A stretch of DNA of 48,394 nucleotides from Acidobacteriota bacterium. Its GTDB lineage: Bacteria > Acidobacteriota > Terriglobia > Bryobacterales > Bryobacteraceae. The notes under the pieces are model-generated. The model did not search any database. It was not told where the DNA came from and saw only the letters and a program-made list of their open reading frames with translations. Both the position numbers and the translations under genes were made by a program. The DNA lies in contig VFZU01000035.1 of the NCBI GenBank assembly GCA_016870995.1, forward strand, positions 1 through 48,394. The letters run 5' to 3'. Numbering within the stretch: position 1 is the first letter of the stretch; every line of letters starts with the position of its first letter. This document shows positions 9,882 to 47,375 of the stretch, one piece after another.

Positions 9882-12401
9882 GTGAGATTTCTCGTTCTGA
9901 TTCTGTTGGGGGCTTGCGCCTGGGCGCAGCGTGCGCCTTTGTTCAAGGATGAGATTCTGCCTGTCTTTGAGAAGAGCTGTGTGTCGTGTCACAGTGCGGA
10001 TCGCAAGATGGGCGGGCTCGATTTGTCGTCGTTTTCGGGGTTGATGGCGGGTGGCGCGAGCGGGCCGGTGGTTGCGCCGGGGAAGCCCGAGCGGAGCTTG
10101 TTGTGGATGCAGATCGATGCGGGGCGGATGCCGATGGGGGGCAAGCTGACGAATGCCAATAAGCAGTTGATTCGAGCTTATCTGGAGCATGGGCGGTTTC
10201 CGCAGGAGGAGTTGGATCAGGCTGCGGCGGCGCGGGAGGCGGCGAAGATTACGCCGGAGGCGCGGAAGTGGTGGTCGTTTGTTGTGCCGCAGTCGCCGGC
10301 GGTGCCGCGAGTTCGTGGTTTTGTGAGGACGCCGATTAATGCGTTTGTGCAGGCGCGGCTTGAGGCGCGTGGGTGGGGAATGCAGAAGGAGGCTGAGCGG
10401 GTTCGGTTGATGCGGCGGCTGTATTTTGGGTTGACGGGATTGGGGCCGACTGCTTTGGAAGCGCAGGCGTTTTTGGAGGATCGAAGCGAGGGGGCCTATG
10501 AGAAGTTGGTGGACCGGTTGCTCGCTTCACCGCGGTATGGAGAGCATTGGGGGCGGCATTGGCTCGATGTGGCGGGGTATTCGGATACGCGCGGGGATGC
10601 GGGAGATGGCGAGCGCGAGGTTGCTTACAAGTATCGGGACTATGTGATTCGGGCGTTCAATGCGAATAAGCCGATTGACCGGTTTTTGCTCGAGCAGTTT
10701 GCCGGGGATCAATTGGTGAATTACAAGCCGGGGAGTGTGCCGACGGCGGAGCAGGTTGAGGCGTTGACGGCGACTGGTTTTTTGAGGACGATCGCCGACA
10801 TTACGGACAACCAGACGATCTATGAGGTGGACAAGTATTTCGATGCGTTGCAGAAGACGGTGGAGACGAGTTTGTCTTCTGTGATGGGGCTGACGGTGGG
10901 GTGTGCGCGGTGTCATGACCATAAGTTTGATCCGCTGTTGCAGAGGGATTATTACAAGCTGACGGCGGTGTTTCAGGCGACGTGGGACCCGGAGAACTGG
11001 CTGGCGGCGAATCTGAATTTTGGACCGTGGCCGAGCCGGATGGTGCTCGATATGCCGGTGGCGCAGCGGGATGCCTGGATTGGGGATGTGACGAGCAATG
11101 ACTCGAAGACGATCCGGCGGTTGGATGATTTGCTCGAGGCGACTTATGAGCGGTACCGGAAGGAGTTGCGGGCTGGGCGGGAGATGGGGGAGGCGCGGCG
11201 ACTTGAGTTGCGGAAGTTGATTGAGGATGATCCGGATTTGGAGGTTGACCGGTCGGCGCCAAAAGATGTGATGACGGATGCGGAGATGGAGGCGAAGTTT
11301 GGGGAGTTGAAGCGGTGGAAGGCTGAGTTGCTTGAGAAGAAGGCTTCGCGGCGGAAGAAGCAGAGTACGGTGGAGCCGAATTACATCGAGGCGGCGTGGG
11401 ATGTTTCTAAAACGCCATCGCCCACTTATGTTTTAACGCGTGGGAACTATCTGGCGCCGGGGGCGAAGGTGGAGCCGGGGTTGCCGGCAGTGCTGGATGA
11501 TCCGGCGAAGCCGTTTGTGTTTCCGGATGCGAAGGTGCATGCGGATTGGAATCATACAGGGCGGCGGCTTGAGTTGGCGAAGTGGATGGTGTCGCCGAAG
11601 AATCCGCTGACGGCGCGGGTGTTTGTGAATCGCGTGTGGCAGTTCCATTTTGGGGAAGGGATTGTAAGGAGTGTCGATGACTTTGGACGGCAAGGGGAGA
11701 AGCCGTCGCATCCGGAGTTGCTTGATTATTTGGCGGTGGAGTTTCAGAAACACAACTGGGATCTGAAGTGGTTGACGAAGATGATTGTGATGTCGCAGGT
11801 GTACCGGCAGGATTCTGCGGAGAAAGCTGAGTGTTTGAAGGAGGATCCGTCGAATCACATGTTCTGGAGGAAGGCGCCATTGCGGCTGGAAGCGGAGGCG
11901 ATTCGGGATTCGATGTTGCTTGTGTCGGGAGTGCTCGATTCGAAGATGTATGGACGGCAGGAGCCGTTGCGGCGTGGGGCGGATGGGCAATGGATGGAGG
12001 ACGAGGAGAAAGGCAACGGGCGGCGGCGGAGTATTTATCTGAAGCAGTCGCGGACGAGGCCGGTGGCGTTCTTGCATTCGTTTGATGCGCCGACGATGAA
12101 TACGGATCATGAGACGCAGCGGTTCCGGTCGGCCTTGCCGACGCAGTCGCTGGCGTTGTTGAATAGCCCGTTCGTGGAGAAGATGTCGAAGGCGTTTGCG
12201 GGGCAAATGCTCGAGCAGGCGAACCGGGATGTGGATGCGGCGGTGCGGCTGGCGGTGATGGCGGCGTATTCACGACCTGCGCGGGAGGGTGAGCTCGCTG
12301 TGGCCAGGGAGTTAATTCGGAGTAGTGGGACGCCGGAAGAGGGCTTGCGGTTGTTTGTGCAGGCGCTGTTCGGCGCGAACGATTTCTTATACAGTTACTG
12401 A
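9882..12401 (+). CDS. cytochrome c-like / DUF1549 / DUF1553 exported protein
   Basis: An 839-residue protein of the PSD1 type first noted in Planctomycetes. After a signal peptide (MRFLVLILLGACAWAQ) comes a heme-binding cytochrome-like domain with CVSCH (Cys33, Cys36, His37) and GRMPMGG. DUF1549 follows, with RHWLDVAGYSDTRGD and a second heme-type motif CARCHDHKFDP (Cys341-His345). DUF1553 fills the C-terminal third (NPLTARVFVNRVWQFHFGEGIV, SQVYRQDS, FDAPTMNTDHETQ, PTQSLALLNSPFV). Start is GTG. It is followed 12 nt later by a DUF1501 gene, the usual neighbour. The biochemical role is not established; association with periplasmic oxidation or breakdown of complex carbohydrates is only a suggestion for the family. 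Confidence 0.88.
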   Translation: MRFLVLILLGACAWAQRAPLFKDEILPVFEKSCVSCHSADRKMGGLDLSSFSGLMAGGASGPVVAPGKPERSLLWMQIDAGRMPMGGKLTNANKQLIRAYLEHGRFPQEELDQAAAAREAAKITPEARKWWSFVVPQSPAVPRVRGFVRTPINAFVQARLEARGWGMQKEAERVRLMRRLYFGLTGLGPTALEAQAFLEDRSEGAYEKLVDRLLASPRYGEHWGRHWLDVAGYSDTRGDAGDGEREVAYKYRDYVIRAFNANKPIDRFLLEQFAGDQLVNYKPGSVPTAEQVEALTATGFLRTIADITDNQTIYEVDKYFDALQKTVETSLSSVMGLTVGCARCHDHKFDPLLQRDYYKLTAVFQATWDPENWLAANLNFGPWPSRMVLDMPVAQRDAWIGDVTSNDSKTIRRLDDLLEATYERYRKELRAGREMGEARRLELRKLIEDDPDLEVDRSAPKDVMTDAEMEAKFGELKRWKAELLEKKASRRKKQSTVEPNYIEAAWDVSKTPSPTYVLTRGNYLAPGAKVEPGLPAVLDDPAKPFVFPDAKVHADWNHTGRRLELAKWMVSPKNPLTARVFVNRVWQFHFGEGIVRSVDDFGRQGEKPSHPELLDYLAVEFQKHNWDLKWLTKMIVMSQVYRQDSAEKAECLKEDPSNHMFWRKAPLRLEAEAIRDSMLLVSGVLDSKMYGRQEPLRRGADGQWMEDEEKGNGRRRSIYLKQSRTRPVAFLHSFDAPTMNTDHETQRFRSALPTQSLALLNSPFVEKMSKAFAGQMLEQANRDVDAAVRLAVMAAYSRPAREGELAVARELIRSSGTPEEGLRLFVQALFGANDFLYSY

Positions 12402-12413
12402 AGCGAGGTCAGC

Positions 12414-13793
12414 ATGTTTCGAACGCGTAGAGAAGCATTGAAAGAAGTGGCGCTAGGGTTTGGTGGCCTGGCGTTGAACTCGATGCTGGCCAGCGGGGCG
12501 AGCCTTACGCCGCGCAAGCCGCACTTTGCGCCGAAGGCGAAGAACGTGATCTTCCTCTATATCGGCGGGGGGCCGAGCACGATCGATATGTTCGATCCGA
12601 AGCCGCTGTTGCGTAAATATGACGGTAAGCCGGCGCCGTTTGAGATCAAGGGGCGGGCGCTGAATGGGTCGCAGCAGATCATGGCGAGCCCGTGGGAGTT
12701 TACGCGGAGCGGGAAGAGTGGGCGAGAGATTTCGAACCTGCTGCCGCACTTTCAGAAGGTTGTGGATCAGGTGACGTTTGTGCGGGGGATGCAGACGGAC
12801 CGGATCGATCACTCGACGGCGCAGTTTACGTTTATCAGTGGGCGCGGGTTTACGGGGTTTCCGGCGATTGGGTCGTGGGTGAGTTATGCGCTGGGGACTG
12901 AGAATCAGAATCTGCCGGCTTACATTGCGTTGGGTGAGGGGGCGAGTATTGGGACGCGGGCGCACTCGTCGGCGTGGCTGCCGCCGGTGTATAGCGGTAC
13001 GGCGATGAGGGCGGATGCGAAGGCTCCGATTTACAACATCAAGCCGCCGGAGGGGATGACGGATGAGAAGCAGCAGCGGTTGATTTCGGCGATCCAGAAG
13101 TTGAACCGGGAGCAGGCGGCGGATCGACCGCTCGACCAGGATCTTGAGGCTCGGATCGCGAATTATGAGCTAGCGGCGAAGATGCAACTTGCGGCGACGG
13201 AAGTTGCGGATTTGTCGAAGGAGAGCGTGGCGACGCGAGAGATGTATGGTGTGGATGCGCCTGTTTCGGGTGGGTTTGGGAAGTTGTGTTTGATGGCTCG
13301 GCGGTTGGTTGAGAGTGGTGTGCGATTTGTGCAGGTTTATGGCGGAGGCGGTGGGAATTGGGATACGCATAGCAACATCAAGGGGCAGTTGCCGGGATTG
13401 TGCCAGTACATCGATCAGGGGATGTCGGCTTTGCTTGCCGATCTGGATCAACGAGGGATGCTGGCCGAGACATTGGTGGTGTGGAGTGGTGAGTTTGGGA
13501 GGCTGCCGACGATTGAGGCAAATACGGCGACGCCGGGCCGGGATCATAATCCTTATGGCTTTGGCATGTGGATGGCTGGGGCGGGCGTAAAGCGTGGCTT
13601 TGATTTTGGCGCGACCGATGACCTTGGTTATGCGGCGCTGCCGGAGAATCGGGCCGGGCATAGCGATATCCATGCGACCGTGCAGCATTTGCTGGGGATT
13701 GATTATCAGAAGAACACGTTCCCTTATGAGGGGCGAGATGAAAGCCTGGTTGGAATCAACCCGGCGCGCGTGATTCGCGAGATTTTGAGTTAG
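12414..13793 (+). CDS. DUF1501 domain protein with Tat-type leader
   Basis: A 459-residue protein starting MFRTRREALKEVALGFGGLALNSML, a twin-arginine-like leader. The body is DUF1501, related to the alkaline phosphatase/sulfatase fold: NVIFLYIGGGPSTIDMFDPKP, FVRGMQTDRIDHSTAQFTFISG, RFVQVYGGGGGNWDTHSNIKGQLPGLCQYIDQGMSALLADLDQRGMLAETLVVWSGEFGR in several motifs and GRDHNPYGFGMWMAGAGVKRG. The conserved Asp/His positions of these motifs could bind metal. It partners the preceding cytochrome/DUF1549/DUF1553 gene, with which it forms a known pair, and is followed by a TIM-barrel protein 11 nt on. Substrate unknown. Confidence 0.9.
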   Translation: MFRTRREALKEVALGFGGLALNSMLASGASLTPRKPHFAPKAKNVIFLYIGGGPSTIDMFDPKPLLRKYDGKPAPFEIKGRALNGSQQIMASPWEFTRSGKSGREISNLLPHFQKVVDQVTFVRGMQTDRIDHSTAQFTFISGRGFTGFPAIGSWVSYALGTENQNLPAYIALGEGASIGTRAHSSAWLPPVYSGTAMRADAKAPIYNIKPPEGMTDEKQQRLISAIQKLNREQAADRPLDQDLEARIANYELAAKMQLAATEVADLSKESVATREMYGVDAPVSGGFGKLCLMARRLVESGVRFVQVYGGGGGNWDTHSNIKGQLPGLCQYIDQGMSALLADLDQRGMLAETLVVWSGEFGRLPTIEANTATPGRDHNPYGFGMWMAGAGVKRGFDFGATDDLGYAALPENRAGHSDIHATVQHLLGIDYQKNTFPYEGRDESLVGINPARVIREILS

Positions 13794-34727: not shown

Positions 34728-37667
34728 TTAGAAGCTAAAGCGCAGACTCATCTGAATGCGGCGATTGGCCGAGGAGCCACCGCCACCGCCGGGGCCGAAG
34801 CCGCCACCGGTCGTGTTGGAAACACCGAACAGGGGTGAGGTCATGGTGCCGACTGGGGCGCCGAGGTTCACGTTGTTGGTAGCGTTTTGAGCCTGGATGC
34901 TGAGCGTCAAATTGTACTTCTTGTTCTGGCTGCCGAAGATTCCGGGAGGCGGGCCGCCACGGCCGCCGCCGCCCATCATGCCGCCCATGGGAGGACCGCC
35001 GCCGCTGCCACCGCGAGAGCCGCCACCGCCCATACCGCCAGCGCGCATCATCATGCCCATGGGATCCTGTTCGGCTCCCTTGGGTTCACCACCGAAGCCC
35101 CAGGTGCGGCTGAGACGGAGGTTGAGAGTGAACTGGCCGGGGGCCTGGCCGGCGTTGCGGGCGAGCAGTTGCTGGCCGGGCTTGGGATTGGGATCGAGGT
35201 AGCGGCCGTCATAAAAGATGATGCCGGGACCAGGGCCTGAGGCGATGCCGGGGCGATGGATGTTGAGCTGATTGTCGCCGTAGAGGTCGCGGCCGGTGAC
35301 GATGTTGAAGGGGCCACCGGTGCTGAAGACCATGAAGGGGCTCAGACTGACCTTGAAGGGAAGGGTGACGGAACCGGCAGCAAACATGCGGTGACGTACG
35401 TCAAAGCGGTTGCGGCCCCATTCCTGGGAGAGGTCGTAGGTGTCATTGGGGAAGGTGTTGAACCCGTCGGTGTTGCCACGAGCCTTGCCGAGTGTGTAGA
35501 AGGCGAAGACGGAAACCTTGGGATTGATGCGGGCGTTCGTGTTGATGACCAACTGATCCTGCACGAACCGACCGGTGGACTCGTAGAGGTACAAGTTCCC
35601 CGCAGCGGCACTGAAGGGGTACACAGCAGTCGAGGGATTCAGCGGATTGTAAGTGCCAGCCAAGGGCGTATTGATGTTGCGGCTACGGCCCTGGTTGATA
35701 CCGACGGTGTGATTGTAGTTGATGCCGAGAGTGATGTTGCGCGGCAGCGAGCGCTCCATGCCGAAGTTGGCCTGAGCGAGGTAAGGGTTCCGAAGATCCG
35801 GATCTACGGCGCGGGTGATGCCCGAACGCGAGAAGCGCTGGAGCTCCGACACGGGAGGAATGTTGGGATAAAAGTTGGGGAAGCTGACCACGTACTGCTG
35901 CTGCACGATGCCGTTGAGGCGACGGGCGTCGAGGGACAGATCTTCACCGAAACGATCGAAGAAGAGGCCGGCGCCAGCGCGGAGAACCGTCTTGGGAGGA
36001 CGACCACCCTGGGACTTACCAACACCCCAGGCTACGCCGATGCGGGGGGCGAAGTTGAACTGGTTGCGGATATTCGATTGGGTTTCAAAGCGAAGGCCGG
36101 TAGACAGGCTCAAGTTGGGCTTCACGCGCCATTCGTCCTGAATGAACAGACCGGCATCGACCTGATCAATGCTCTGGCGCGGGATACCTGCCGACACCGT
36201 GAATTGCTGAGCACCGCCGCCCTGGGCGCGAATCTGATCAAACGTCAGACCGTTTGCCAAGCCGCGCTGAGTGATGGCGAAGGCGTTGAGGTTGAGGAAG
36301 GTAAAGTTGCCGTTGTAGCCATTGGTATTCTGGTCGGTCTGCTGCACGCCCCGGAGACGGCCGCCCCACTTGACGAGGTGTGTCTTGTAGGTGAACGAAG
36401 TGATGTTGGAGTATTCGTACCGGCGTTCGTTGGTGAAGTTGGCGCTGAAGGTGGCTCCACCGCCGTTGAAGGCGTCGATGACGTTGATCGAGGGGATGAC
36501 CGACTTAGCGGTCTGGTCGTTGCGGTTGTCGACGAACTGGAAGCGGTCTTCGTTGATGATGCGAGCGCTGGCGAGCCAGGTGTGAGTGGCTTGCACTTGT
36601 TGCGTTTTGCCTTCGAACTCGGCGGCACGTTCAGGAAGCGTGAAGGTCGAGATACCAGCGTTGGCGCTGGTGTTGCGCTGGAAGGTATAGCGAGTGGTCA
36701 GGGTGTGCTTGGCGCTCAATTGGAAGTCCGCGCGGGGCGAAATGGTGAGGAAGCGAGTGGGGTTGCCAATGTTCTGGACGAAGGGCACGGGGTTGAAGGA
36801 AGTATCAAGCGTGAGGGCGTTGATCAGGTTGGCTTCGTCGTTAATGCGCGTATCGACGTCGAGGGCGAAGCTGGACTTCTTGGTAAGGGGTCCGCTGATG
36901 CTGCCACTGATCGAGTTCTGATAGGCGTCGGGGCGGGTCTTGGCGAAGTTGTTTCGCGAGTTGAAGATGTTGTTGCCGGCGTTGTAGAAGAACTGGCCGC
37001 GGAATTTGTCCGAGCCGGGCTTGGTGAAGATCTCGATGCGACCGAAGCCGATGCGATCATACTCAGCCGAGAAGGGGTTGGAGTTAACGCGGATCTCGCG
37101 GATGGAGGCCTTCGGGGGCAGGCGGCCGCCGGAGAAGCCGTCGATGAAGAGCTGTGCGCCATTGGGGCCTGCAGCGGGACCAGCCAAGGCGTTGAGTTCG
37201 TTTTGGAGATCGTCGGGGTTGTCGCTGAGCATGGCGAGGTCTTCGCCCTTGAGAACGAGTGCGCCAACGTTGCTTGAAGGATCAACGTCGATGGCAATGG
37301 TGTCGGTGACGGTGATCTCCTGCTTCGAAGCTTCGATGTTGAGCTTGGCGTTGATCGAGATCTGCTTGCCTGCGGCAATGTCAAAGTCCGTCTGTTCAAA
37401 AAGGCTGAAGCCGGTCGAGGAGACTCGGATGGTGTATTTGCCGCCGGGAATGCCGGCTACGGTGAATTTACCGTCGGCATCCGAAGATGCAACTTTGACA
37501 AATCCGCCGGGGCCGGAGACGGTGACCGAAGCGCCCGGGATGGCTGCGCCAGAGGGGTCAGTGACGAGACCTTTGAGGATCGAGCCGGTTGGGGCTTGTC
37601 CGAGTGCCATCATCGCCGAGGCGACGAGGCTGAAAAAAAGGCAAAGTAATCGAGTGTGGGAGTTCAT
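34728..37667 (-). CDS. TonB-dependent receptor-like protein with carboxypeptidase-regulatory domain
   Basis: A 979-residue outer-membrane protein. CAGGAG 7 nt upstream supports ATG 37667 and a signal peptide (MNSHTRLLCLFFSLVASAMM). Next come a carboxypeptidase-regulatory domain (GSILKGLVTDPSGAAIPGAS..., GKYTIRVSSTGF), a plug domain (LQNELNALAG..., FIDGFSGGRLPPKASIREIR) and a long barrel ending IQMSLRFSF. Near the C-terminus, before SQNKKYNLTLSIQAQN, lies a Gly/Met/Pro-rich insertion (MGMMMRAGGMGGGG, GGPPMGGMMGGGG). Such receptors import large or complexed substrates in Acidobacteriota. 67 nt downstream of the Gly/Pro-rich exported protein, with which it likely shares an operon. Confidence 0.88.
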   Translation of the reverse strand: MNSHTRLLCLFFSLVASAMMALGQAPTGSILKGLVTDPSGAAIPGASVTVSGPGGFVKVASSDADGKFTVAGIPGGKYTIRVSSTGFSLFEQTDFDIAAGKQISINAKLNIEASKQEITVTDTIAIDVDPSSNVGALVLKGEDLAMLSDNPDDLQNELNALAGPAAGPNGAQLFIDGFSGGRLPPKASIREIRVNSNPFSAEYDRIGFGRIEIFTKPGSDKFRGQFFYNAGNNIFNSRNNFAKTRPDAYQNSISGSISGPLTKKSSFALDVDTRINDEANLINALTLDTSFNPVPFVQNIGNPTRFLTISPRADFQLSAKHTLTTRYTFQRNTSANAGISTFTLPERAAEFEGKTQQVQATHTWLASARIINEDRFQFVDNRNDQTAKSVIPSINVIDAFNGGGATFSANFTNERRYEYSNITSFTYKTHLVKWGGRLRGVQQTDQNTNGYNGNFTFLNLNAFAITQRGLANGLTFDQIRAQGGGAQQFTVSAGIPRQSIDQVDAGLFIQDEWRVKPNLSLSTGLRFETQSNIRNQFNFAPRIGVAWGVGKSQGGRPPKTVLRAGAGLFFDRFGEDLSLDARRLNGIVQQQYVVSFPNFYPNIPPVSELQRFSRSGITRAVDPDLRNPYLAQANFGMERSLPRNITLGINYNHTVGINQGRSRNINTPLAGTYNPLNPSTAVYPFSAAAGNLYLYESTGRFVQDQLVINTNARINPKVSVFAFYTLGKARGNTDGFNTFPNDTYDLSQEWGRNRFDVRHRMFAAGSVTLPFKVSLSPFMVFSTGGPFNIVTGRDLYGDNQLNIHRPGIASGPGPGIIFYDGRYLDPNPKPGQQLLARNAGQAPGQFTLNLRLSRTWGFGGEPKGAEQDPMGMMMRAGGMGGGGSRGGSGGGPPMGGMMGGGGRGGPPPGIFGSQNKKYNLTLSIQAQNATNNVNLGAPVGTMTSPLFGVSNTTGGGFGPGGGGGSSANRRIQMSLRFSF

Positions 37668-37734
37668 GGTTGCTCCTGAAGCAAGAAATTTCGAGTTTTT
37701 AAAGCTAAAGATTGCTGTCCTGAGAGGCGAGTCC

Positions 37735-39039
37735 TTACTGCGGACCGCCACCCATTCCGCCGCCGCCCATCATGCCGGCGCCGCCGTCCAGATTCCAGGT
37801 TCCGAGCTGCGAGGCGCGAGAGCCGTTTGAGGGCGTGGCCAAAATCGGCTCCACCCCAGCGAGGATGGTGATCGCCACCACCTTATTTGGTTCTTTGGTC
37901 TTGCTGACCGAGAGGATCAGCGGATCGTTCTTTTTGAGTTCTGTGAGAGGGATGGCGGGGGAACGGTCGATTGCAATGCCCATCATGTCGCCACCAGCAG
38001 GTCGACGGCCTGCGCCGCCAGCCATACCGGTTGGGGGACCACCTGCGCCGGGAGCGCCGGAAGGACGCATACCCATGCCAGTAGGAGGGCCGCCCGCTCC
38101 AGGAGGGCCGCCAGTTCCGGCAGGGCCGCCCGCTCCGGCAGGGCCGCCCGCTCCGGGAGGGCCGCCCGCTCTGGGAGGGCCGCCCGCTCCGGGCCGGCCA
38201 CCACCCATGCCCATGCCTGCAAAGCCACCATTGATCGCCATGGCCATCATCGTGGCGGCCATTTCAGGAAGCTTCTTCAAATTGGCGTCTTTGCCGATTT
38301 TGACGAAGAGAGGCTTCTTGGTGTCGAGATCGGTAACTTCAATCACACCATTGACCGTATCGATGTTCTTGATCGTGGCGGCGATGTTGCGGAACGCGCC
38401 GCTGACCACTTGCTCAGCCGTGTAGGTGGCGCCATCATCGCTCTTGGTACCGAGAGCGCGAACCTGGTCGTCTTTTTCGATGTCGTCAATCGTGCTGGCG
38501 ACCGCATCGGAAAATTTGACGCTGCCTTCGGCGTATCGCTTCATTGAGGCTTTCTCGGCGATCACGACTTTCACAGACTTAACGCCTTCGGTGCCGCGCG
38601 AGTTGACCGTAACTGTACGAGTAGCTTTGTCAACAGCGGTGACAATGCCCGAAACGCCTTTGGTAGCCCACAGCATCTGTTCCTGCTGTTGCTTCTTGGC
38701 GATATCGGTTTTGCTCATCAGCACAACCAGCGTGGCGTTCATCGTTCCATCAGCAAGAGGGCCACGGGCCAATACTCGATCTCCAGCAGAAACAGACGAC
38801 AACTCAGCCGGCTTGGCATTCTGCAGATTCTGCTCACCCGGAGGGATCTGCGATACGCGGGCTGCATCGGCAACCTTGACTTTTGTTTCTGAACCGTCGT
38901 CGGCCTTGATCGACAGTGTCCGTGCTGCTGCGTCCACCGCAGTGACGGTGCCGACGACCGGCTTCGGCGCCTGAGCCATCAATCCCATTGCGATCAGGGC
39001 GAGGCTGAAGAGTTTCGTCATGAAAGAAGTTTTTCCCAT
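37735..39039 (-). CDS. exported DUF5666-like protein with Gly/Pro/Met-rich repeats
   Basis: A 434-residue protein with a signal peptide (FMTKLFSLALIAMGLMAQA). Three copies of a small beta motif follow: GTVTAVDAAARTLSIKADDG, GIVTAVDKATRTVTVNSRG and GVIEVTDLDTKKPLFVK, typical of DUF5666/OB-like domains. A low-complexity stretch (about 265-330) is built from six-residue GAGGPP-type repeats, and the protein ends GMMGGGGMGGGPQ. ATG 39039 is preferred to 39021 because an excellent Shine-Dalgarno (AAAGGAGGT, 39054-39062) lies upstream, though 14 nt away. Function unknown; surface exposure or metal binding by the Met/Gly tracts is only a possibility. Confidence 0.75.
   Translation of the reverse strand: MGKTSFMTKLFSLALIAMGLMAQAPKPVVGTVTAVDAAARTLSIKADDGSETKVKVADAARVSQIPPGEQNLQNAKPAELSSVSAGDRVLARGPLADGTMNATLVVLMSKTDIAKKQQQEQMLWATKGVSGIVTAVDKATRTVTVNSRGTEGVKSVKVVIAEKASMKRYAEGSVKFSDAVASTIDDIEKDDQVRALGTKSDDGATYTAEQVVSGAFRNIAATIKNIDTVNGVIEVTDLDTKKPLFVKIGKDANLKKLPEMAATMMAMAINGGFAGMGMGGGRPGAGGPPRAGGPPGAGGPAGAGGPAGTGGPPGAGGPPTGMGMRPSGAPGAGGPPTGMAGGAGRRPAGGDMMGIAIDRSPAIPLTELKKNDPLILSVSKTKEPNKVVAITILAGVEPILATPSNGSRASQLGTWNLDGGAGMMGGGGMGGGPQ
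38084..38191 (+). repeat. six 18-bp tandem repeats inside the Gly/Pro-rich gene
   Basis: Six head-to-tail units of an 18-base sequence (consensus GGAGGGCCGCCCGCTCCG on the + strand) at 38084, 38102, 38120, 38138, 38156 and 38174, with one to four differences each. In frame they encode the GAGGPP-type repeats of the minus-strand gene, so copy-number change would alter protein length without shifting the frame. Confidence 0.9.
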
Positions 39040-45024: not shown

Positions 45025-46059
45025 ATGTTGACCCGAACTTTAGTTCTCCCACTCTTGATTGCCGCCTCGGCAGTATTCGCACAAGGCCCCGCAGCCGGGC
45101 CGGACCCTTCCATCCTGCAGACCCTGTTGAACCGCCATCGCCCTACACCGCAGCGCTTTGAGTTCGCCGCGATTGGCGACCAGCAGTACGGCGCGACTGG
45201 GATTGCCAAGTGGCCCGCCCTTCAAGCCTCGATCAACCGCTCGACGGCAACCCAGTTCTTGGTGCACACCGGCGACATCAAGTCGGGCAGCACGCTTTGC
45301 GACGACGCAATGTTCGCCAGCCGTCTGCGCGACTTCAACAATTTCGAAATGCCGATGATTCTCACTCCCGGCGACAACGAGTGGACCGATTGCCACCGCG
45401 AGAACAATGGCAGCTACGACTCGCTCGAGCGGCTGCGTTACCTGCGGAACATTTTTTATCCAAACAACCAGAGTCTTGGCCGGCGCAAGATTACGCTGAG
45501 CCGGCAGAGCGAAGATCGCCGGTACGCAAATTACGTCGAAAACTCGATGTGGAGTCAAGGGAGCATCCTGTTCGCGACCGTGCATCTTGTGGGCAGCAAC
45601 GACAACCTTGGGCGCAATGCAGAGAACGACGCTGAGTGGCGCGAGCGGACGGCAGCGAATTTCAACTGGCTGAAGACGATCTTTAGCGTCGCGCGCGACA
45701 ACGAATTCTCGGGAGTCGTGCTGGTGATGCAGGTGAACCCCGGTTTCGACGGAGTGCGCGTGCGGGTATCGCAGCTTGATTCCGGCTTGCGGGATAGCTT
45801 CTTTGTTATCGAAGACGAGACGATCACCTTCCGCAAGCCCGTGCTGCTGATTCATGGCGATTCGCATGTTTTCCGCGTCGACAAGCCTCTGCTCGGCGGC
45901 CGTTCGGGGTTGTTGGTCGACAACTTGACGCGCCTCGAAGTACCCGGCAGCGGAGACGTGCATTGGGTTCGCGTGACGGTGGACCCGGCCAAGACGCAAC
46001 TCTTCGGTGTCGAGCATGTCGATGTCGTCGAGAACTTCTTTACGCAGACGCGCCCGTAG
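45025..46059 (+). CDS. exported metallophosphoesterase-like protein
   Basis: A 344-residue protein with a signal peptide (MLTRTLVLPLLIAASAVFAQ). The calcineurin-like motifs are visible but atypical: FAAIGDQQYGATG, LVHTGDIKSGS, LTPGDNEWTDC (GDNE in place of GNHE), and later LIHGDSHVFRV with the final His. These supply likely metal ligands Asp, Asp, Asn and His. It is probably a periplasmic or surface phosphoesterase; substrate unknown. Codons here end in C more often than in the genes to the left. Followed by a strong terminator. Confidence 0.75.
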   Translation: MLTRTLVLPLLIAASAVFAQGPAAGPDPSILQTLLNRHRPTPQRFEFAAIGDQQYGATGIAKWPALQASINRSTATQFLVHTGDIKSGSTLCDDAMFASRLRDFNNFEMPMILTPGDNEWTDCHRENNGSYDSLERLRYLRNIFYPNNQSLGRRKITLSRQSEDRRYANYVENSMWSQGSILFATVHLVGSNDNLGRNAENDAEWRERTAANFNWLKTIFSVARDNEFSGVVLVMQVNPGFDGVRVRVSQLDSGLRDSFFVIEDETITFRKPVLLIHGDSHVFRVDKPLLGGRSGLLVDNLTRLEVPGSGDVHWVRVTVDPAKTQLFGVEHVDVVENFFTQTRP

Positions 46060-46064
46060 TTTTT

Positions 46065-46107
46065 CGAAACGGGTGCAGTGCCGGCCTGAGGCACTGCACC
46101 CGTTTCG
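46065..46107 (+). terminator. strong Rho-independent terminator (18-bp perfect stem)
   Basis: Arm 1 46065-46082 (CGAAACGGGTGCAGTGCC) and arm 2 46090-46107 are perfect reverse complements with a 7-nt loop. TTTTT precedes it and TTT follows, so it could work in both directions. It begins 5 nt after the phosphoesterase stop. Confidence 0.9.
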
Positions 46108-46226
46108 TTTGATGTATATTAATGAGTACTCCACGTACAACGAGTATTGACTGCCAGAGCAGTCTTCGCTCGGCCCGCCCTTTCGCCCCGGCCCCATTGA
46201 CCAAATCCTTACAGGAGCATGCACCC

Positions 46227-47375
46227 ATGCAGATCGATATGCCAGAAATGAATGGCTTTTCCCGGCGTCGCGTACTACGCGCTGCCAGTCTCCTTTCGGC
46301 CGGCGCGGCATTGCCTTTTTACAATGAGTTCGCCATGGCCCAGGACGCCACCCAGCGTCTTCAAGGATCACGCGCGCCGATGCCGCCCGACGCCGTTCGG
46401 ATTGGATCGAACGAGAACCCGCTCGGGCCTTGCGTCGAAGCCTGCGAGGCGATTGCGAAGATTGCAAAGTACGGCGGTCGCTATTCCCCTCATAACGAGG
46501 GCGCGGACTTCATCAAGATTGTCTCGGAAGTTGAAGGAGTTAAGCCCGACTTTATCTCGCCCTACGCGGGCTCAAGCGATCCGCTCCATCGGTCTGTGCT
46601 CGCCTTTGCCTCTCCCACCAAGGGCCTGGTGATGGCGGACCCCGGCTATGAATCTGGCGCCGGCACGGCGAAGTTTGCAGGGATTAAAGTAACGCGCGTG
46701 CCATTGATGAAGGGCACCTATGCCCACGACGTCAAGGCCATGATCGCGGCCGATCCGAACGCCGGCATTTACTATATCTGCAACCCGAACAACCCGACAG
46801 GAAGTATCACCAAGCGGGAAGACATCGAATGGCTGCTGGCGAACAAGAATAAGGATTCGATTGTTCTGCTGGATGAAGCCTACATTCACTTCTCCGAAGA
46901 GATGCCCGGCAGCGACCTGGTTGCCAAAGAAAAAGATGTTGTTGTATTGCGTACCTTCTCGAAGGCTTTCGGCATGGCTGGTATCCGTTGCGGCATGGCT
47001 ATGGGTCGTCCGGACCTCCTGGCGAAGCTGCGCCCCTACGGTGCAGGCATGCTGCCGATCACGGGCCTGGTGGCGGGAACAGCGAGCTACAAATCGAAGA
47101 CTCTCGTTGCCGAACGGCGGGCCATCAATGCTCGCGTCCGCAACGATGTGTTCGAGTTCCTCGACAAGAAGAGCATCAAGTACATCCCGAGCGTATCGAA
47201 CAAATTCATGATGGAAGCCGGACGGCCGGGCGCGGAACTCACGCGCGCACTCGCCCAGGAGAAAGTATTCATTGGACGCACCTGGCCGGTGTGGCCCACC
47301 ATGGTGCGCGTCTCCATCGGTACCCAGGATGATATGAACAAGTTCAAGACTGCGTTGTCGAAGGTCCTCAGCTAA
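46227..47375 (+). CDS. Tat-exported class I/II aminotransferase (HisC-like)
   Basis: A 382-residue fold-type I PLP enzyme with a twin-arginine leader, FSRRRVLRAASLLSAGAALP. The start at 46227 is supported by AGGAG 9 nt upstream; the open frame extends to 46122. The body resembles histidinol-phosphate aminotransferase: GSNENPLGP, YYICNPNNPTG, LLDEAYIHF and RTFSKAFGMAGIRCGMAMG with the Schiff-base Lys246. Because it appears to be exported, a role in cytoplasmic histidine synthesis is unlikely and hisC is not assigned; D-amino-acid or phosphonate/amine metabolism in the periplasm are untested options. Confidence 0.83.
   Translation: MQIDMPEMNGFSRRRVLRAASLLSAGAALPFYNEFAMAQDATQRLQGSRAPMPPDAVRIGSNENPLGPCVEACEAIAKIAKYGGRYSPHNEGADFIKIVSEVEGVKPDFISPYAGSSDPLHRSVLAFASPTKGLVMADPGYESGAGTAKFAGIKVTRVPLMKGTYAHDVKAMIAADPNAGIYYICNPNNPTGSITKREDIEWLLANKNKDSIVLLDEAYIHFSEEMPGSDLVAKEKDVVVLRTFSKAFGMAGIRCGMAMGRPDLLAKLRPYGAGMLPITGLVAGTASYKSKTLVAERRAINARVRNDVFEFLDKKSIKYIPSVSNKFMMEAGRPGAELTRALAQEKVFIGRTWPVWPTMVRVSIGTQDDMNKFKTALSKVLS

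Follow-up and report, generated by a model that had tools for sequence, protein, structure and literature searches.

The gene at positions 46,227 to 47,375 of the analysed DNA very probably encodes a periplasmic transaminase that is exported by the twin-arginine translocation (Tat) system, is cut near residue 38 and uses PLP/PMP bound to K246, judging from its sequence. The DNA, called the window below, is a stretch of 48,394 nucleotides from a Bryobacteraceae genome (Acidobacteriota bacterium, contig VFZU01000035.1). The 382-residue product matched the family model PRK09105 (NF006580) over its full length with 485.3 bits, above the curated cut-off of 444, and the match (residues 9 to 381) starts inside the leader. 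No feature separating the window protein from this family was seen. By its model scores it is thus a PRK09105-type transaminase, and neither a HisC nor a PtaA equivalog. The name of the model gives no substrate. The first-pass annotation had presented an exported PLP aminotransferase as an unusual kind of protein. This did not hold up, because the protein belongs to a curated family, with PtaA as the nearest characterized relative, and because the PLP enzymes PtaA and PvdN of Pseudomonas are exported folded by Tat according to the available part of a review (PMC6206403). Exported PLP transaminases are already known as a kind, and the window enzyme is a further member. Among the matches listed, a literature search on Bryobacter gave nothing on the window enzyme.

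Table 1 Features of the transaminase gene and its upstream DNA (positions in the window).
Feature	Positions	Strand	Basis
Putative Tat-exported PLP aminotransferase, PRK09105 subfamily, PtaA-like	46227..47375	+	NF006580, PF00155, predicted fold
AGGAG, probable ribosome binding site, ending 9 nt 5′ of ATG	46213..46217	+	by eye
Twin-arginine leader, residues 1-38, RR at 13-14, likely cleavage AMA/Q	46227..46340	+	conserved RR, purifying selection; cleavage site by eye
Linker and mature transaminase domain, residues 39-382; fold alignment from about residue 49	46341..47372	+	alignment, predicted structure
Codon of catalytic lysine K246	46962..46964	+	invariant in 35/35 homologues
Perfect 18-bp hairpin, terminator-like, between upstream gene and transaminase gene	46065..46107	+	inverted repeat, folding energy
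Conserved upstream DNA block	46168..46193	+	kept, with variation, in the same-genus genes with upstream sequence available

The N-terminus carries the features of a Tat substrate as seen in sequence and conservation, namely an S/T-R-R-x-hydrophobic motif, a hydrophobic stretch and an AxA-like site. The leader sequence SRRRVLRAASLLSAGAALP corresponds to residues 12-30, and a cleavage-like site, A-M-A/Q, was recognized by eye at residues 36-39. The arginine pair was found in 34 of 35 aligned homologues. For a wider comparison, 99 distinct homologous ORFs were collected, of which five fragments were dropped, leaving 94 full-length sequences that include the window gene and its close relatives. 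A simple Tat-leader rule was passed by 91 of these 94 (scanned up to residue 95), compared with 30 of 683 other called genes (scanned over their first 60 residues) and 157 of 20,000 shuffled N-termini. The exceptions were L104 (DRR instead of the motif), one of the copies in L068 (no hydrophobic stretch) and a Zymomonas homologue, L110 (no RR). A stricter rule, which requires a start codon before the motif and picks the most hydrophobic RR, was passed by 85 of the 94, and its failures came partly from its own limits on start codon and hydropathy. The Zymomonas homologue (L110:6914-7990) shows no RR motif at its start as read; it may have lost export, or its start may be misread.

The leader is also conserved at the codon level. 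Against seven same-genus orthologues, pn/ps was 0.06-0.17 for residues 9-40, 0.11-0.15 for the mature domain and 0.22-0.56 for the linker (residues 41-61), and in six of the seven comparisons pn of the leader was lower than that of the mature enzyme. Such a low leader pn relative to the mature enzyme is unusual for signal peptides. By these ratios the leader is translated and under purifying selection. The claim of the first-pass annotation that the gene carries a real twin-arginine leader was therefore confirmed. The machinery for export is encoded in the same genome (G000), with a TatC of 202 bits (G000:C2:46505-47173) and two TatA/B/E-type proteins (G000:C2:45783-45917 and G000:C57:11509-11637).

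A further observation concerns residues 30-38 (46314-46340), a conserved stretch of the P-F-Y-N-E type with an acidic residue right before the cleavage site. It was present in 52 of the 62 homologues of at least 45% identity, with four more besides, and in one of 31 more distant homologues. Its conservation is unexpected for a part of the protein that should be cleaved off, and this stretch may in fact be retained.

The annotated start codon is consistent with these data. The start is ATG in all eight same-genus genes. A true start downstream of the leader, named earlier as an outcome that would overturn the reading, was rejected because of the codon-level conservation of the leader. A longer ORF starting at 46122 was rejected as well; L004 has an in-frame stop seven codons 5′ of M1, and in a gapped alignment of the genus the DNA 5′ of M1 is conserved in blocks, and the species differ there by insertions and deletions of 1 and 2 nt; the extended frame is therefore not a conserved coding sequence. 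Among five comparable extensions, that of L003 was more similar to the extension of the window than all 300 of 300 shuffles, and that of L008 more similar than 294 of 300. This resemblance reads as conserved non-coding DNA, either promoter or 5′ untranslated region.

Two conserved elements lie in this upstream DNA. One is a block, GCTCGGCCCGCCCTTTCGCCCCGGCC, 33 nt 5′ of the ATG and conserved within the genus. With up to three mismatches it occurred once each in G000, G002 and G004, each time before the transaminase gene and nowhere else, and it was not found in G006, the last of the four genomes searched. This block probably belongs to the promoter or the 5′ untranslated region. The other is a palindrome-like sequence, ACTCCACGTACAACGAGT (ACTC..GAGT), at 46128-46145, also conserved upstream of the gene in the genus. 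It gave four matches in the four genomes versus seven for a backward control. A regulon defined by either element was therefore rejected, since the block stands before the transaminase gene alone and the palindrome-like matches are fewer than those of the control. The conserved upstream DNA is possibly an operator or a 5′ untranslated element.

The enzyme part of the protein is intact. All 35 of 35 aligned homologues share K246, N189, D216, Y219, S245, R254 and R361; we take K246 to be the PLP lysine and N189, D216, Y219, R254 and R361 to be PLP contacts, with roles as in HisC structures. The protein matched Aminotran_1_2 (PF00155) with 121 bits, and at E up to 0.1 the only other Pfam match was a weak one to PF04864. 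An AlphaFold2 model reached a mean pLDDT of 89.1, its uncertain part being the first 50 residues. The best fold match in the PDB was 3ly1 (Z 41.0, rmsd 2.5 over 332 residues, 30% identity), a putative HisC of Erwinia carotovora atroseptica (Pectobacterium), which was also the best sequence-profile match in the PDB (285 bits). Its alignment starts at 51 of the entry's numbering, which would leave room for a leader in that protein too. HisC structures came next in the fold comparison (Z 37-39). The second profile match in the PDB was a mycobacterial putative phenylalanine aminotransferase, and therefore an amino-acid substrate is reasonable. By sequence and predicted structure, the window protein is a complete fold-type-I PLP aminotransferase with intact active-site residues, in agreement with the earlier claim of an aminotransferase with its catalytic lysine.

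PvdN is an aminotransferase of class V, defined by Aminotran_5 (PF00266). In contrast, the window protein is of class I/II (PF00155), and PF00266 was absent from it in the Pfam search at E up to 0.1. PvdN chains were also absent from the best 50 rows of the fold comparison, which is uninformative either way. What the two proteins share is that PvdN, too, is a Tat-exported periplasmic PLP enzyme, as stated in the available part of the review (PMC6206403).

From these features the following course can be proposed. The polypeptide would fold and load PLP in the cytoplasm, the SRR leader would direct the folded enzyme to Tat for transport over the inner membrane, and the leader would be cleaved near residue 38. 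The product would be a periplasmic fold-type-I transaminase, presumably dimeric, in which PLP/PMP bound to K246 would carry amino groups from amino acids or amines to 2-oxo acids and back. Export with bound PLP and ping-pong transamination are proposed here by analogy with PtaA. As to substrates, the gene neighbours of relatives suggest free amino acids or small peptides that enter through the outer membrane; free amino acids in particular are a possible choice, though we are somewhat inclined to doubt it.

How far the protein may depart from this course was weighed against three other readings. One is that it is the histidinol-phosphate transaminase of histidine biosynthesis, cytoplasmic and with a merely cosmetic N-terminus. 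The HisC fold and 193.3 bits to the HisC model (TIGR01141) speak for it, but the score is below the cut-off of 276.55, which two other genes of the same genome pass (G000:C17, 318.2 bits; G000:C15, 298.7 bits), and the leader, which is kept across the family, is under roughly the same constraint as the enzyme. We regard this reading as highly improbable, and a genuine HisC identity was rejected on the missed cut-off and the two better HisC genes. The description "HisC-like" given earlier is thus right for the fold and wrong for the family. A second reading keeps the export and gives the enzyme other chemistry in vivo, such as that of a decarboxylase or lyase, on amines of the cell wall or of secondary metabolism. 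Threonine-phosphate decarboxylase and C-S lyases appeared in the same fold comparison (Z 34-37), and PvdN, in the available part of the review (PMC6206403), is an example of how unusual periplasmic PLP chemistry can be. The decarboxylase model TIGR01140, however, gave 124.6 bits against a cut-off of 290.55, and the two best models of the window protein are of transaminase type, so that we consider this reading quite unlikely.

The third reading is that of a functional PtaA orthologue, which would transaminate the terminal glutamate of a peptide siderophore in the periplasm. PtaA shares the Tat leader and the HisC-fold transaminase domain with the window protein, and its equivalog model (NF051461) is the second-best model at 341.6 bits. 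Many relatives of the window gene adjoin outer-membrane barrels, and PtaA reportedly exists even where a species is unable to make pyoverdine (PMC6206403, available part). On the other side, the score is below the equivalog cut-off of 500, which was reached in none of the 199 Acidobacteriota genomes searched. Moreover, no NRPS condensation domain (PF00668) was found in the window's own genome (5.7 Mb, 99% complete, 215 contigs), while 4 of 14 control genomes were positive; pyoverdine-type tailoring is therefore unlikely. On these two grounds PtaA orthology was rejected, and a PtaA function in vivo is in our judgement an unlikely one.

The PRK09105 cut-off was passed by 19 of 297 genomes of a phylum sample and by 1 of 14 controls, and further relatives score lower. 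Orthologues with 86-88% identity were found on six contigs (Bryobacter sp., Bryobacteraceae bacterium and Acidobacteria bacterium), which makes the genome Bryobacter-like. In a quick tree built from the mature domain (96 rows; two HisC sequences as outgroup; several long branches flagged by the program; a few leader residues included in rows L010, L077, L082 and L084), the window gene grouped with seven same-genus orthologues (support 100) within a set of 29 rows (97). The same genome holds a paralogue with 56% identity (G000:C21), which was placed elsewhere in the tree. A tblastn search of plasmids gave only relatives below 60% identity, the best listed being 37.6%. Some loci hold several copies. 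On one Acidobacteriia contig (L094:5400-9676) three exported-transaminase copies stand in tandem, followed by outer-membrane-barrel genes, and L068, L090, L091 and L101 each hold two copies.

In the window itself the transaminase gene appears to stand alone. The hairpin upstream of it has a 7-nt loop, a folding energy of -37.7 kcal/mol and a z of -7.65, and is trailed by just a short T run; it suggests that the transaminase gene is transcribed separately. An operon with the upstream ORF (45025-46059) was rejected because this perfect hairpin lies in between. The ORF encodes 344 residues with a signal-like N-terminus and, by eye, metallophosphoesterase-like motifs, but neither Pfam nor NCBIfam gave a match to it at E up to 0.1. 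Downstream lies an MscS-type channel gene that faces the transaminase gene. Several genomes of the genus share the synteny of this block, which says little. The window also contains an outer-membrane barrel gene that is unrelated to the transaminase gene (34728-37751) and, at 9882-13793, a Planctomycete-type pair PSCyt1/DUF1549/DUF1553 followed by DUF1501, whose protein has a Tat-like leader by the simple rule.

The neighbours of relatives were surveyed at 62 sources, of which two duplicates and two without a transaminase call were dropped, leaving 58 loci. These include eight same-genus orthologues and three species of Sphingobium, and the counts are uncorrected for phylogeny. Gene calling was crude (by length and GC by codon position), so the counts are approximate, some genes having been missed or miscalled, for example RidA in L106 and the transaminase in L110. 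Within two genes of the transaminase, barrels of the OMP_b-brl_4 type were found at 21 of 130 places on the same strand and at 2 of 88 on the opposite strand; farther away they took up 6 of 410 (21/130 versus 6/410, Fisher p = 2e-9, uncorrected for phylogeny). The example scanned was PF25183 with CarboxypepD_reg. A SulP-type transporter was directly downstream in 8 of the 58 loci and upstream in one; the example examined matched PF00916 and was under the NCBIfam sulP cut-off. An amine-oxidase-like flavoprotein (PF01593) was found within two genes in eight loci, and in six loci a RidA-like protein (PF01042) lay no more than three genes away; these identities were checked on examples by Pfam. 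The flavoprotein resembles an L-amino-acid oxidase, and relatives with it and RidA as neighbours belong to some Acidobacteriaceae and to Sphingobium. By eye, the flavoprotein has an RR leader in L059, L061, L086, L106 and L107. The own-genome paralogue lies in a run of barrel, transaminase, SulP and barrel genes (L051; G000:C21:9000-28000).

A further run was found in Sphingobium (L106:1557-9690 and L107:1678-9687), where the genes encode exported proteins in the order TonB receptor, RidA, RR-leader flavoprotein, cytochrome c, transaminase, class V PLP enzyme and RidA. This order was pieced together from the two loci, the first RidA being called in L107 and cytochrome c in L106. The class V enzyme has an SRR leader, the second RidA has a signal-like N-terminus, and the transaminase gene of L106 overlaps both neighbours by 4 bases. 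In L086, the barrel, flavoprotein, RidA and transaminase genes are consecutive on one strand. In L059, L060, L061 and L095 the flavoprotein gene lies on the opposite strand, facing the transaminase gene, so there is no single transcript at these loci. A general link between the transaminase and this amino-acid-oxidase-like gene was only partly borne out. In a sample of 121 genomes of the class (E up to 1e-60), a transaminase place was next to two of the 20 oxidase places listed; these two (G170 and G179) are L059 and L060, already within the counts above. The transaminase was present in 9 of 15 genomes with the oxidase versus 32 of 106 without it (Fisher p = 0.04, uncorrected for phylogeny). 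The window genome yielded no close homologue of the amino-acid-oxidase-like protein; the best hit had 25 bits and covered short stretches only. This result and the absence of barrel, SulP, flavoprotein and RidA genes beside the window gene count against the reading proposed above for the window enzyme, as do the three homologues that fail the simple Tat-leader rule.

Seen together with the review and with a described gene cluster, the run in Sphingobium resembles a system for exported amino-acid deamination. In such a system the transaminase would extend the range of substrates, and regeneration of the oxo acid would fall to the oxidase. The cluster is lao-cccA-ridA of Gluconacetobacter, which resembles the exported oxidase, cytochrome c and RidA beside the Sphingobium relatives. 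Its oxidase has a Tat leader, and insertions in the oxidase gene abolished the formation of indole-acetic acid from tryptophan, as given in the available part of the source (PMC5053998). That part, however, places no transaminase in the cluster, and the window gene has no such neighbours. No description of such a system was among the matches listed in our literature searches; one Xanthomonas paper that matched by its wording dealt with secretion systems.

A broader proposal, which we put forward as a speculative and rather doubtful one, is periplasmic transdeamination. Exported PRK09105-type transaminases would gather amino groups from many amino acids on a single oxo acid. An exported FAD oxidase or dehydrogenase, with RidA and cytochrome c, would then remove these groups, so that the acceptor and with it the PLP form are restored outside the cytoplasm. 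TonB-type receptors would serve for entry and an anion carrier for oxo acids, whereas the window enzyme would stand alone and use another acceptor. All these components occur together in no single locus. In the Sphingobium loci (L106-L108) the transaminase is accompanied by receptor, oxidase, RidA and cytochrome c, but by no SulP carrier; in L086 it is accompanied by barrel, oxidase and RidA, and SulP carriers sit with other relatives.

Little attention is paid to PLP enzymes outside the cytoplasm, and in the literature searched we found tested functions only for PtaA and PvdN of Pseudomonas. PtaA-like exported transaminases occur in many Acidobacteriota, sometimes in two or three tandem copies, and some relatives adjoin genes for exported amino-acid oxidation. 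The available part of the review (PMC6206403) notes that periplasmic PLP must somehow be regenerated from pyridoxamine. If periplasmic transdeamination is true, it would give a testable answer to this open point, the conversion of PMP to PLP in the periplasm, and it may be a route by which soil bacteria use amino acids.
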